In this document: positions 2,950-32,515 of the stretch, in pieces
Layout: every line of letters starts with the position of its first letter
Numbering within the stretch: position 1 is the stretch's first letter
From: Longimicrobium sp.
Lineage (GTDB): Bacteria; Gemmatimonadota; Gemmatimonadetes; Longimicrobiales; Longimicrobiaceae
Reading direction: 5' to 3'
Length of the DNA: 32,515 bases
Assembly (NCBI GenBank): GCA_036387335.1
Contig: DASVTZ010000211.1
Coordinates: forward strand, 1 to 32,515
Translations under genes and position numbers: made by a program
Notes under the pieces: model-generated
Databases searched by the model: none
What the model was told of the DNA's origin: nothing
Seen by the model: the letters and a program-made list of their open reading frames with translations, nothing else

Positions 2950-2987
2950 CCCGTAGGGGCCGCCCCACGTGGCTGCCCGTGCCCGCC
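2950..2987 (+). repeat. Palindromic intergenic repeat, type P1 (CACGTGG core)
   Basis: A copy of a family with a GTAGGGGC left flank, a GCC-CCACGTGG-CTGCCC core and a GTGCCCGCC right flank. Other copies are at 13998, 16435 and 32282. This 309-base gap (2875-3183) otherwise holds the E2 hairpin and presumably the promoter of the PPC gene; a weak TAGATT -10-like hexamer sits at about 3110. Confidence 0.8.
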
Positions 2988-7054: not shown

Positions 7055-7402
7055 CGGAGGCAAGATGGCTACGGGCTCTGAATTGTCGGGGTGGAACGCG
7101 CCGGGCCGGCGGATTCTGACCGGAGCTGCGGCAGGAAGGGTGCCGGGAAGGATATTGCGCGGGGGCGGGGGGGCGGAAGGGAGTGCATTAGTGCGTGAGT
7201 GCGGCGGGCCCCCTCCCCCCGGCCGCCTCCCCCGCCCGCGGGGGCGCAGGGCGAGGGCGGGGGACAACACCGTGTGCGTTGCGCGATGCCCGTACGGGCG
7301 CGCACCGCAAACTGCGCCCATGCCAGACCGCTTCAGCGGTCTTCGCGTAGTTCCAGCCGGGGGATTTATCCCCCGGCGGTGCGGGCGCCGGCCCTGCCCT
7401 GC
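7055..7402. repeat. Gene-free interval with G/C-rich repeat and two palindromes
   Basis: This 348-base stretch holds an inverted copy of the P5 repeat (about 7202-7265; other copies at 23284 and 32474), a perfect 8-bp palindrome at 7325-7342 and a perfect 9-bp palindrome with a TT loop at 7357-7376. The two palindromes lie downstream of endonuclease V on the minus strand and could end its transcript, although neither has a T-run. The sigma-factor promoter must lie in the low-coordinate part; none is clear. Confidence 0.6.
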
Positions 7403-8119: not shown

Positions 8120-8218
8120 GCCTCACACAGAGCCACAGAGGGGGACGGAAAGCAAAACGGAAAGGCTTTTCTCAGCGCCTTTCCGTTTTCCTCCGTGCTC
8201 TCTGTGTGATGCTGTTCA
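8120..8218. repeat. CACAGAG inverted repeat (type P6) with internal 13-bp hairpin
   Basis: The outer ends are CCTCACACAGAG and CTCTGTGTGATG, an imperfect inverted repeat. Inside is a perfect 13-bp stem (8154-8166 with 8177-8189, 10-base loop) flanked by T-rich sequence on both strands, which can act as a terminator after the gene ending at 8216. A second copy with the same ends is at 20127-20220 and a short version at 11890-11916. Confidence 0.75.
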
Positions 8219-12482: not shown

Positions 12483-13789
12483 GCAGTGGGGCGGTGCCGC
12501 TGATCGAGCGGAAGAAGAACGGCGGCGAGCTCTCCCCCGACGAGATCCGCGCGCTCCTGGCCGGCTACCTGGACAGGTCGATCGCCGACTACCAGGTGGC
12601 GGCGTGGCTGATGGCCGTCTGCTGGCGCGGGATGACGGAGGGCGAGACGCTGGCGATGACCCAGGCGATGGTCGACACCGGCGCCACGCTAGAGTGGGCG
12701 GACCTCGACCGCCCCACCGTCGACAAGCACAGCACCGGCGGCGTGGGCGACAAGACGTCGCTCGTCCTGGTGCCGCTGATGGCGGAGGCGGGCGCGGCCT
12801 TCGTGAAGATGTCGGGGCGCGGGCTGGGGCACACGGGCGGCACGCTGGACAAGCTGGAGTCGATCGCCGGCTTCCGCACGGAGCTCGGGCTGGAGGAGAT
12901 GAGCGCCCAGGTGCGGCGGATCGGGTGCGCGCTCGTGGGCCAGAGCCCCGCCCTCGTCCCCGCTGACGGCGCGCTGTACTCGCTGCGCGACGTCACGGCG
13001 ACGGTGGATTCGGTGCCACTGATCGCCAGCAGCATCATGTCGAAGAAGCTGGCCGGCGGCGCGGGGACCATCGTGCTGGACGTGAAGTGGGGCTCCGGCG
13101 CCTTCATGACCACGCAGGAGGCCGCGCGCGAGCTGGCCGGCGCCCTGGTCCGCATCGGCGAGGGAGCCGGGCGCCGCACGCGCGCCGTCCTCTCCTCCAT
13201 GCGCGAGCCGCTGGGGCGCGCCGTGGGCAACGCGCTGGAGGTGCGCGAGGCGCTCGAGACCCTCAACGGCGGCGGCCCCGCGGACCTGTGGGCGCTCACC
13301 CTGGAGCTCGGCACGCACCTGATGCTCCTCTCCGGCCTTGCATCCTCGGCCGACGAGGCCGTGCGCACCCTCACCGCGCTTCGTGACTCGGGAGCGGCGG
13401 CGCGGCGGATGGAGATGCTGGTGGAGGCGCAGGGAGGCGACCCGCGCGTCGTCGCCCGCCCCGACCTCCTCCCCGCCGCCCCCGTCGTGCGCACCGTCGC
13501 CGCCGACGCGGACGGATGGGTGGCGGAGGCGGACGCGCGCACCATCGCGGAGGCGGCCCTGCAGCTCGGCGCCGGGCGCCTGCGCAAGGGCGACCCCGTG
13601 GATCCCGCGGTCGGCATCGTCGTCCTCGCCCGCGTCGGCGACCGCCTGGCCCCGGGCGCCCCCCTGGCCGAGGTGCACGCCCGCACGGACGCCACCGCCG
13701 AGGCCGCCGAAGCCCGTCTCCGCGACGCGTTCCGCCTCTCGCCGGAAGCCGTAGCGGCGCACGCGGAGCCGTACGAGACGGTGGGGTAG
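12479..13789 (+). CDS. pdp: Pyrimidine-nucleoside (thymidine) phosphorylase
   Basis: A 436-residue enzyme that phosphorolyses uridine, deoxyuridine or thymidine to the base and (deoxy)ribose-1-phosphate. Landmarks: the N-terminal I-E-R-K-K-N-G-G-E-L-S, the phosphate-binding V-D-K-H-S-T-G-G-V-G-D-K-T-S-L, G-R-G-L-G-H-T-G-G-T-L-D-K-L-E-S-I, and S-I-M-S-K-K-L-A-G-G. The C-terminal alpha/beta domain is complete. It starts with GTG at 12479, overlapping the cdd stop by four bases (GTGA), so the pair forms a translationally coupled pyrimidine salvage unit. Pdp and DeoA cannot be separated by eye. Confidence 0.93.
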   Translation: MSSGAVPLIERKKNGGELSPDEIRALLAGYLDRSIADYQVAAWLMAVCWRGMTEGETLAMTQAMVDTGATLEWADLDRPTVDKHSTGGVGDKTSLVLVPLMAEAGAAFVKMSGRGLGHTGGTLDKLESIAGFRTELGLEEMSAQVRRIGCALVGQSPALVPADGALYSLRDVTATVDSVPLIASSIMSKKLAGGAGTIVLDVKWGSGAFMTTQEAARELAGALVRIGEGAGRRTRAVLSSMREPLGRAVGNALEVREALETLNGGGPADLWALTLELGTHLMLLSGLASSADEAVRTLTALRDSGAAARRMEMLVEAQGGDPRVVARPDLLPAAPVVRTVAADADGWVAEADARTIAEAALQLGAGRLRKGDPVDPAVGIVVLARVGDRLAPGAPLAEVHARTDATAEAAEARLRDAFRLSPEAVAAHAEPYETVG

Positions 13790-13806
13790 GGCCCTCACCC
13801 CCCCGG

Positions 13807-13860
13807 CCCCCCTCTCCCGATAACAGGAGAGGCTGGCGCCTCTGTTATCGAGAGAGGGGG
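13807..13860 (+). repeat. Long hairpin repeat type P4 (CCCGATAACAGG)
   Basis: CCCCTCTCCCGATAACAGGA pairs with a nearly complementary right arm ending at 13860. It comes 17 bases after the phosphorylase stop and is preceded by GGCCCTCACCCCC, as in the copies at 16607 and 27251. Termination of the salvage operon is possible, without a U-run. Confidence 0.75.
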
Positions 13861-13861
13861 G

Positions 13862-14034
13862 AGTAGGGGCGCGATTTATCGCGCCCGTGCCTGCCGCTGC
13901 TCGGTCGGCCGCCTTTTCGCACGAATCCCGTGGGGGCCGACCTGCGTGTCTGCCCGCCCTCGCCGCCGCACCTCCCCCCGCCCCTTCACACCAGAACCCG
14001 TAGGGGCAGCCCCACGTGGCTGCCCGTGCCCGCC
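13862..14034 (+). repeat. Composite palindrome cassette P3-P2-P1
   Basis: Three different palindromic units share the GTAGGGGC-like left flank and a GCCC-rich right flank: P3 with a GCGCGATTTATCGCGC core (13862-13894), P2 with a GACCTGCGTGTC core (13927-13959) and P1 with a CCACGTGG core (13998-14034). With P4 just before them, they fill most of the 360-base gap (13790-14149). The same set in mirrored order is at 16435-16662 and 32282-32453. Confidence 0.8.
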
Positions 14035-16434: not shown

Positions 16435-16662
16435 GCGGGCACGGGCAGCCACATGGGGCGGCCCCTACGGGATTCGGGTGCGAAAGGGCAGAGGTTGAGG
16501 TTGCGGAGAGGGTGGGCAGACACGCAGGTCTGCCCCTACGGAATTGGGGTGCGTGGGGCGAGGGGCGAGGCGGCGGCGGGCACGGGCGCAGCGCACGCAG
16601 TTCCAGCCCCCTCTCACGATGACAGGAGGGCGCAGCCCTCTCCTGTTATCGGGAGAGGGGGC
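16435..16662 (-). repeat. Composite palindrome cassette P1-P2-(P3 remnant)-P4, mirrored
   Basis: P1 at 16435-16471 and P2 at 16511-16541 are read on the minus strand. Near 16573 is a piece with the P3 left flank (GGCGGGCACGGGCGC) without its palindrome, and then a P4 hairpin lies at 16607-16662. The order mirrors that at 13807-14034. It fills much of the 486-base gap between the FKBP and L,D-transpeptidase genes. Confidence 0.8.
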
Positions 16663-19733: not shown

Positions 19734-20125
19734 GGCTAGCCGCCCTCTTCCTGCTCCTCGCGCTCGCCGCCTGCGGGGGGCGCGAGGCGGAGGACACGGG
19801 GCTGTCGCTGGTGGCGCGCAGGGAAGGGGACGACGGCTACCTGGTGTGGGGCCGCACCACCAGCCGCGAGGCGCTGGAGCTCTCCGTGGAGGATGGCGAG
19901 CGCGTCCTCTTCGGCCCGGTGCCGCTCCTGGCGCGCGAGGGCCGCTTCCGCGTGGACTTCACCGTCGAGCCGACCGAGCGCCGCGTGCTCTACCTCTTCC
20001 TCTCCGATGCGGGGGGCGGGCGGCAGTGGCGGGTGGAGATTCCGCGCGGGCGCCGCGAGGTGCGGTTCGGCCCTCCGCTCCCACCTGAGCCGCCGCCTCC
20101 GGAATATCTTCCGCTGGCGAGGTAA
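19730..20125 (+). CDS. Small lipoprotein, unknown function
   Basis: A 131-residue protein with a short signal and the lipobox L-A-A-C (C15), predicting lipid anchoring. The mature part is beta-rich with repeated R-E-G-R-F-R-V-D-F and R-R-V-L-Y-L-F-L-S-like strands and a proline-rich tail, suggesting a small immunoglobulin-like sandwich. It starts with GTG at 19730 overlapping the previous stop, with GCGGGAG upstream. It is the last gene of the transpeptidase-PHP-membrane pair operon, which may act on the cell envelope. Confidence 0.7.
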   Translation: MRLAALFLLLALAACGGREAEDTGLSLVARREGDDGYLVWGRTTSREALELSVEDGERVLFGPVPLLAREGRFRVDFTVEPTERRVLYLFLSDAGGGRQWRVEIPRGRREVRFGPPLPPEPPPPEYLPLAR

Positions 20126-20126
20126 A

Positions 20127-20220
20127 CAGCATCACACAGAGGGCACAGAGGGAACTACAAGGCGCAGAGAACCCCTCCTCCCCTTCTTTCCCTGCCCCTC
20201 TGTGGCTCTGTGTGAGACTG
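20127..20220. repeat. CACAGAG inverted repeat (type P6)
   Basis: Ends CAGCATCACACAGAGGGCAC and CCTCTGTGGCTCTGTGTGAG match those of the copy at 8120-8218 in opposite orientation. Apart from a short GGCGC-GAGAA similarity the interior differs. It follows the lipoprotein stop and may end that operon. Confidence 0.7.
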
Positions 20221-23003: not shown

Positions 23004-23347
23004 CCATCACAAGTGTACATCACGCGGCACACGGTACCTGTTCCACGCCTCGCCGCTTCCTCTGCCACTGCATCGATCCACCGCACCCGCGCAAAATCTC
23101 ACTCGGTTTGTGCAGCCAGGCCGAAGCTCAAGGAGGGAGCAGAGGGTCGGCGCAATATATGGCGCCCATACACTATTGCGCACCCCGCGCGTATCGGTGC
23201 GTGCACCCCTTCCCCAGGAGTTTGGGAGAAGGCGGGGAAGAACGAACGTGGAGAGCGCTTGCGATGCCCGGGCGCGCGCAGGGCAGTTCTCCCCCTCACC
23301 CGCCCTGCGCCCCCGCAGGCGGGGGAGGGGGTCGGGGGGAGGGGGTC
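23004..23347. other. Gene-free interval with a P5 G/C-rich repeat
   Basis: No convincing gene is seen. Bases 23284-23345 hold the P5 repeat (CTCCCCCTCACCCGCCCTGC, then a CCCCCGC...GCGGGGG hairpin and a G-rich end); other copies are at 7202-7265 (inverted) and 32474 to the window end. The 3' end of the cold-shock transcript borders this stretch. Confidence 0.55.
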
Positions 23348-27142: not shown

Positions 27143-27250
27143 CGTGCGCGATTGGTGTCGGGGTGCGTTTCCTCTGGCGTGCGAGCGGCGTAACTTACGG
27201 GCGGGACGGCGGCGCGGGGAGGGGCCCTCACCCCCGCTCGTTCCTCGCTG

Positions 27251-27304
27251 CCCCCTCTCCCGATAACAGGAGAGGGCTCCGCCCTCCGTTATCGAGAGAG
27301 GGGG
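27251..27304. repeat. Long hairpin repeat type P4 between divergent genes
   Basis: CCCCCTCTCCCGATAACAGG and its near complement form an almost perfect stem, preceded by GGCCCTCACCCCC near 27222. It lies between divergent genes, where a terminator has no use, which argues that P4 spreads as a repeat rather than serving only termination. Confidence 0.75.
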
Positions 27305-27315
27305 CGGAGGGTGTT

Positions 27316-27346
27316 ACTAGGCACTCGGCACTGGGCACTCGGCACT
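27316..27346 (+). repeat. Solo NGGCACT heptad array upstream of psuG
   Basis: ACT followed by four heptads (AGGCACT, CGGCACT, GGGCACT, CGGCACT), the same layout as 423-453, but without a partner arm. Weaker ACGCACT units follow up to the psuG start at 27371. Confidence 0.75.
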
Positions 27347-32281: not shown

Positions 32282-32453
32282 GGCGGGCACGGGCAGCCAC
32301 GTGGGGCGGCCCCTACGGGTTGGGTGCCAGGGGCGGAGATCGAGGCGGGGGCGAGGGCGGGCAGACACGCAGGTCTGCCCCTACGATTTCTGGGCAGACG
32401 GGCGGGCGGTGGTGCGGCGGCGGGCACGGGCGCGATGAATCGCGCCCCTACGG
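32282..32453 (-). repeat. Composite palindrome cassette P1-P2-P3, mirrored
   Basis: P1 at 32282-32319, P2 at 32355-32386 and P3 (GCGCGATGAATCGCGC core) at 32418-32453, all ending in GCCCCTACG. The order is the mirror of 13862-14034. They follow the toxin stop by 21 bases. Confidence 0.82.
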
Positions 32454-32473: not shown

Positions 32474-32515
32474 AGTTCTCCCCCTCACCCGCCCTGCGCC
32501 CCCGCAGGCGGGGGA
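32474..32515 (+). repeat. P5 G/C-rich repeat cut by the window end
   Basis: CTCCCCCTCACCCGCCCTGC followed by CCCCCGCAGGCGGGGGA matches 23290-23330 base for base where both are present. The element continues beyond the window. Confidence 0.75.

Follow-up and report, generated by a model that had tools for sequence, protein, structure and literature searches.

Why should different short palindromes stand side by side in one fixed order at three separate places on the same contig? The question arises from a 32,515-nt stretch of Longimicrobium sp. DNA (GenBank assembly GCA_036387335.1, contig DASVTZ010000211.1; hereafter the window), in which four palindromes, P4, P3, P2 and P1, follow each other at one site and recur in mirror order at two others, the last of these without P4. 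A sequence-only reading of the window had proposed that this cassette spreads as a unit and that palindromic cores are exchanged within a common frame. From a comparison of the window's own genome (G000; 5.82 Mb, 265 contigs, 95.65% completeness) with its sister species G006 and the further species G004 and G005, we conclude that the sites very probably belong to a composite non-coding repeat that arose by a single assembly in the ancestor of the species cluster and was then multiplied in composite form, and whose repetitive extragenic palindromes (REPs) are likely substrates of a resident RAYT (TnpAREP) transposase.

The four hairpins lie where the sequence-only reading had placed them, and their common order can be read directly at all three window sites. 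P1, P2 and P3 are REP hairpins with a GTAG foot and a common GGGC...GCCC frame, joined head to tail at a pitch of 66-71 nt. The arrays and related copies in the window are these:

13789-13860, plus strand, hairpin at 13808-13860: P4 5' hairpin module of site 1 (GGGCCCTCACCCC... followed by CCCCCTCTCCCGATAACAGGAGAGG...GAGAGAGGGGG), which is not a REP of the GTAG kind
13863-13886, plus strand: P3 REP of site 1, with GTAG, a 9-bp stem and a TT loop
13887-13913, plus strand: C-rich tail of site 1, conserved 3' of P3 cores
13930-13955, plus strand: P2 REP of site 1, this copy having GTGG as its foot and a single mismatch in the stem
14000-14025, plus strand: P1 REP of site 1
16443-16468, minus strand: P1 REP of site 2, the mirror array
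16514-16539, minus strand: P2 REP of site 2
about 16581-16600, minus strand: weak P3 remnant of site 2; P3 is near-intact at the orthologous G006 site
16607-16661, minus strand: P4 hairpin module of site 2, lying 5' of the array
32291-32316, minus strand: P1 REP of site 3
32359-32384, minus strand: P2 REP of site 3
32428-32451, minus strand: P3 REP of site 3
32475-32515, minus strand: hairpin module A of site 3, lying 5' of the array and clipped by the window end
2953-2978, plus strand: lone P1 REP
7228-7268, plus strand: solo copy of module A
23286-23326, minus strand: solo copy of module A
27248-27304, strand unassigned: solo copy of the P4 module

P1, P2 and P3 had been described as sharing their outer bases around unrelated cores. 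The shared frame and the different core of P3 stand, but P1 and P2 are related to each other, agreeing at 22 of 26 bases over a common stem frame, so that P3 is the sole GTAG unit with a different core. P4 does not have the GTAG frame; it is a member of another hairpin family and one of several modules found on the 5' side. In the unit alignment the GTAG foot carries about 2 bits per base, and stem pairs are 91-100% Watson-Crick in all units except at pair 5 of P1, which varies (C.T 49, A-T 26, G-C 18); pair 5 of P2 shows a compensatory change from A-T to G-C. Loops are class-specific and conserved, and the P1 loop, CCACGT, occurs in 7 of 77 P2 units, which are thus P1/P2 loop hybrids. As single-stranded DNA, site 1 is predicted to fold into separate P4, P3 and P1 hairpins (z -4.2). 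A search of the window against Rfam gave no family match. The C.T mismatch at stem pair 5, kept in 49 of 94 P1 units from the G000 and G006 samples, recalls the conserved mismatches of Escherichia coli REPs.

These units are abundant and almost invariably ordered. A pattern for P1 and P3 matched 393 times across G000 and once when reversed, and strict patterns counted 221 P2 and 158 P3 genome-wide. We surveyed arrays in a 1.09-Mb sample of G000, drawn in part around known matches, which held 61 P1, 61 P2, 38 P3 and 30 P4 (190 in all; reversed sequence gave 0 for all four consensus sets). Among same-strand neighbours, 71 of 75 ran in the order P3, P2, P1 (23 P3-P2, 39 P2-P1 and 9 P3-P1), and the other four were three P1-P2 pairs and one P2-P3, with no P1-P3; GTAG-to-GTAG spacing was 66-71 nt with few exceptions. 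At least two GTAG units were present in 53 of 83 arrays, the remaining 30 being single units, and an opposed unit occurred in just two arrays of the sample. In G006, 42 neighbours followed the P3-P2-P1 order and 3 ran against it, with one additional P3-P3 pair. The alternative of mostly single units in random order therefore fails. A CRISPR-like array was also rejected from the repeat layout, in which three distinct repeats make up numerous short arrays scattered over the genome; no search was made for cas genes.

The cassette had been delimited as P4-P3-P2-P1. Those units are present, but the repeat is larger, with further hairpin modules flanking it at either end. In the consensus derived from 25 full arrays the order is module A, P3, P2, P1, module B, with inverted, G/C-rich ends, and the full composite, [A or P4]-P3-P2-P1-[B], spans about 370 nt; site 3 of the window is a composite with module A, and sites 1 and 2 have P4 instead. 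The outer modules are polar. Across 135 scored arrays, module A was 5' in 27 and 3' in 1, and P4 was 5' in 32 scorings (25 forward and 7 reverse) and 3' in none, the null being 0 for both; module B was 3' in 11 arrays and, reversed, 5' in 9. Array copies resemble one another beyond their cores, with a median identity of 74% and up to 82% over 368 nt. Because this similarity runs through the linkers into the outer modules, it points to copies of one composite, not to repeated chance assembly. In G004 and G005, numerous near-identical copies (92-100%) of a P4-type module of about 70 nt also occur independently of GTAG units.

The inverted ends of the consensus raise the question of whether the outer modules, with terminal GGCCCCCTCCCCC and GGGGGAGGGGGCC, could be the ends of an element resembling a miniature inverted-repeat transposable element, with the REPs as passengers. 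Arrays bounded by both A and B do exist (7 of 135), and the G005 counterpart of site 2 has two hairpin modules without REPs. We nevertheless regard such an element as rather improbable, since one or both modules are absent from most arrays and solo modules are common.

Related species carry arrays at sites that are occupied in the window. In the neighbourhood of the window, G006 and G004 are about 89-94% identical to G000, and G005 78-87%. At site 1, G006 keeps P4, P3 and P2, lacks one unit (about 71 nt, from the P2 tail to the P1 core) and has, between P4 and P3, 43 nt without a counterpart in G000, whose P4 directly adjoins the GTAG; the G004 contig ends near this site. At site 2, G006 has P3-P1 where G000 has the P3 remnant, P2 and P1; the set in G004 is rearranged and includes inverted hybrids, and in G005 the two hairpin modules stand without any GTAG unit. 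At L181:245-480 of G004 there are inverted hybrid hairpins made of half a P2 and an inverted half P1, as well as an internally duplicated P2. Further orthologous sites likewise differ by gain or loss of whole units. The presence of same-site arrays in relatives indicates that the arrays predate the split of G000, G006 and G004 and change by whole units. As for the proposed exchange of cores within a common frame, whole units are gained and lost in frame and the P1/P2 loop hybrids exist, but clean one-for-one core replacement is unproven; one site is suggestive of it (L034:7357 compared with L344:13911).

Between G000 and G006 orthologues, cores are 92% identical and tails and linkers 80%, a modest but significant excess in a comparison that used units chosen for still matching the consensus. 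Such conservation, together with a pitch that stays at 66-71 nt despite linker drift, is also what would be expected if function kept the order and the roughly 68-nt spacing, the arrays serving between convergent genes as docking or topology sites (for gyrase, an HU/IHF-like protein or Pol I, as in E. coli mosaic REP elements). The genomic placement agrees with this. With genes called by a codon-usage caller seeded with Pfam-verified window genes, 29 arrays lie between convergent, 31 between co-directional and 4 between divergent genes, 1 falls within a gene and 18 are at contig edges, against background gene gaps of 94, 395 and 112 (convergent, co-directional, divergent), so that convergent gaps are enriched. 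However, unit number and type differ between orthologous sites, over a third of the sampled arrays are single units, and arrays are wholly absent from some species of the same genus; a docking function as the cause of the layout is accordingly one we consider improbable.

The same placement, with a median distance of 111 nt to gene 3' ends, is typical of REPs and could suggest transcription terminators or stabilisers of mRNA 3' ends. Array strand, however, shows no bias relative to co-directional genes (17:14), which speaks against a directional RNA signal and led us to reject such a role; no T-run follows the hairpins on their 3' side, and a fixed one-sided GTAG foot is unnecessary for termination. 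A terminator or stabiliser function is, in our judgement, very unlikely.

A different history is that units were inserted singly by TnpAREP at a set spacing from a REP already in place, the order recording the arrival of successive RAYT types, P3 first and P1 last. G005, which has 30 P3 and no P2, fits this, and for the same reason P3 may be the older unit. Tandem pairs of GTAGGGGC units in many phyla have different cores in 29 of 49 scored pairs, and both P2-type and P3-type RAYTs exist. Independent insertions would not be expected, however, to leave linkers and outer modules in register across loci, and the P3-P1 arrays (66-70 nt) and P2-P1 arrays resemble deletion products. We therefore find stepwise insertion unlikely and favour multiplication of a ready-made composite, because order, linkers and modules are shared and the same sites are occupied in the sister species.

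Which enzyme might have acted on these hairpins? An associated TnpAREP gene, envisaged by the sequence-only reading, was found; it is of the expected kind and lies on a contig other than the window's. A profile built from RAYTs of other phyla that are flanked by or hold GTAGGGGC hairpins detected one RAYT gene each in G000, G006, G004 and G001, and none in G002, G003, G005 and G007-G009. The G000 gene (C181:2886-3503) has an HUH motif (MPNHLH) and the tyrosine motif WQRNYYERV. It scores below the cut-off of NCBIfam NF047646 (E=5e-15, 55.6 of 80 bits), the match being split by an in-gene insert; outside the insert, 45 of 82 base changes between the G000 and G004 genes fall at third codon positions. 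A phmmer search of the PDB with the G001 RAYT gave no relevant match. The gene has features of TnpAREP subclass 2.4, or RAYT group 4, a putative assignment made by the features described by Quentin et al. 2018 (PMC6006769). RAYT-positive genomes are rich in GTAGGGGC palindromes (G000 726, G006 596, G004 180, G001 104, G019 65; rank test p=5e-4), as judged against RAYT-less relatives (mostly 0-14 matches), which were used in place of a reversed control because the latter is a poor background for this loose pattern.

Two other G000 genes, with Pfam Y1_Tnp domains, were rejected as cognate transposases, being IS200-like (one by NCBIfam), not flanked by these REPs and equally present in species without the units. 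The IS200-like genes of the genus (L032, L126 and others) are flanked by other palindrome pairs, for example GGGGGCTTTAGCCCCCGG and GACCGCTGAAGCGGTC, and pairs of this type also lie near other G000 arrays, such as upstream of L033:12429. A rule that core abundance follows the core of the resident RAYT also failed: G000 (221 P2 to 158 P3) and G006 (99:198) agree with it, but in G004, where the RAYT is of P2 type, the ratio is 12:82. A sample-based test of the rule (p=9e-5) is biased, the G006 stretches having been chosen near P1/P3 matches, and the rule is unproven.

REPs also lie inside the RAYT gene itself. The G000 insert consists of P2 and an inverted P2-like hairpin, in frame between the HUH and tyrosine motifs, and the G006 insert holds two P3. 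In-gene REPs are known for subclass 2.4 (PMC6006769), and among 57 RAYT loci we found GTAGGGGC hairpins inside the open reading frame in 26, within 400 nt outside it in 22 and in both positions in 10. An Oscillospiraceae contig (L332:1450-3321) carries a 623-aa frame in which a sugar-kinase-like part and a RAYT appear to be joined in frame through some nine repeats encoded by REPs (AVGAVIGRPPQPPEAQ); the period of this REP array, 48 nt, is a multiple of three.

The G000 and G006 RAYT genes occupy the same locus, with flanks 80-93% identical, N parts 91% and C parts 86%. Their centres (about 390 nt) are 48% identical, the background level, and the G004 centre is of the G000 type (82%). Since a centre at background identity is set between conserved ends and flanks, the centre, HUH motif and REP pair included, was most likely replaced as a block between G000 and G006. 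This swap appears to be new, being absent from the open-licence literature searched, including the parts of PMC6006769 consulted. A weaker second case, in another family, is a syntenic RAYT locus with core GCAGCATGCTGC (L395, L401, L405, L409); at L400, with the same neighbours, the RAYT has no detectable DNA similarity to these and has a different REP core. It is conceivable, though less likely than not, that the RAYT gene is modular, its central block (the HUH motif and the REP pair, with the adjoining strands and helix) being exchanged between lineages at one locus while its start and tyrosine end remain in place, that such exchange switches the REP core served, and that the P3-P2-P1 cassette records successive switches within one frame.

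Taken together, the composite would have arisen when P3, P2 and P1 were joined head to tail, often flanked 5' by A or P4 and 3' by B, in a single assembly in the ancestor of the species cluster; it would then have multiplied before the species split and later decayed. E. coli TnpAREP recognises single-stranded REP DNA in vitro by its GTAG and stem-loop and cuts at a nearby CT (PMC8266576), and by analogy the resident RAYT may cut and move the REPs as single-stranded GTAG hairpins. The arrays would since have been mostly static between genes, with whole units lost or gained through in-frame recombination, slippage or TnpAREP cutting, and with core sequences kept while linkers drift.

Several observations weigh against this account. 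Copies share linkers and modules, as the proposal that the cassette spreads as a unit would have it, but aligned orthologous DNA totalling about 74 kb showed no site cleanly empty of a whole cassette, and the cassette's movement as a unit is therefore an inference. The p-values for order count inherited copies as independent and thus measure consistency, not independent events. The detected RAYT is on another contig and holds P2 cores, not P1 or P3, and no cognate RAYT for P1 was seen among the RAYT loci examined. G005 has 78 GTAGGGGC palindromes (the 30 P3 among them) and no detected RAYT in a genome that is 86% complete. Finally, the RAYT type is commoner among genomes from many phyla chosen for tandem GTAGGGGC units (27 of 34) than among those of the window's own phylum (42 of 395; p=6e-18), which speaks for the link between gene and repeat, but the comparison spans different phyla.

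How do these arrays compare with known REP systems? Like the GTAG REPs of Di Nocera et al. 2013 (PMC3733652), they have an unpaired GTAG foot, an 8-9 bp stem, a short loop, hundreds of intergenic copies and several families per genome, mainly downstream of genes; an unpaired GTAG beside a palindrome, high copy number, intergenic position and a P2-type pair in the cognate RAYT were all found here. Unlike those REPs, neighbours here are nearly all head to tail, with three cores in fixed order. Subclass 2.4 (PMC6006769) shares the HUH and tyrosine motifs, cognate REPs whose stem base consists of three G-C pairs, in-frame REPs between the two motifs and double-foot REPs in relatives, but differs from the present case, where RAYT centre and REP pair are swapped between sister species at one locus. 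Bacterial interspersed mosaic elements of E. coli (PMC2817692, PMC8266576) are likewise mosaics of REP types and other motifs, but their REPs alternate in orientation, whereas ours point the same way. In contrast to REPINs, in which an inverted REP pair is the mobile unit, the arrays are same-strand and only the in-RAYT pair is inverted. In the GI-GIII arrays of Pseudomonas fluorescens SBW25 (Bertels and Rainey 2011, PMC3116915), two REP families alternate at fixed spacing and in a single direction; those arrays are few, confined to two genome regions and in some cases long, whereas the ones described here are short (1-3 units), scattered throughout the genome and accompanied by outer hairpin modules. 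The open-licence literature searched contained no example of dispersed arrays with three cores in strict order and polar hairpins on their outer sides.

The window also holds repeats of other kinds. One family, with units like ACTAGGCACT / GGCACT, lies at 23-53, 416-453, 1456-1533 and 27309-27346, and also forms a close inverted pair at 1455-1534. A separate inverted repeat pair lies at 8122-8216 and 20125-20216 (CTCACACAGAGCCACAGAGG... and TTTCCTCCGTGCTCTCTGTGTGATGCTGTT).

REPs, RAYTs and the in-gene REPs of subclass 2.4 were already known, and it is the ordered, same-direction layout of mixed hairpins that is unusual, departing from the head-to-head dimers that underlie current mobility models. 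REPs and domesticated transposases are common, and the sister-species locus makes the matching of transposase to repeat directly testable: two RAYTs with the same ends differ in their centre and built-in REP, in genomes full of ordered arrays of exactly these cores.
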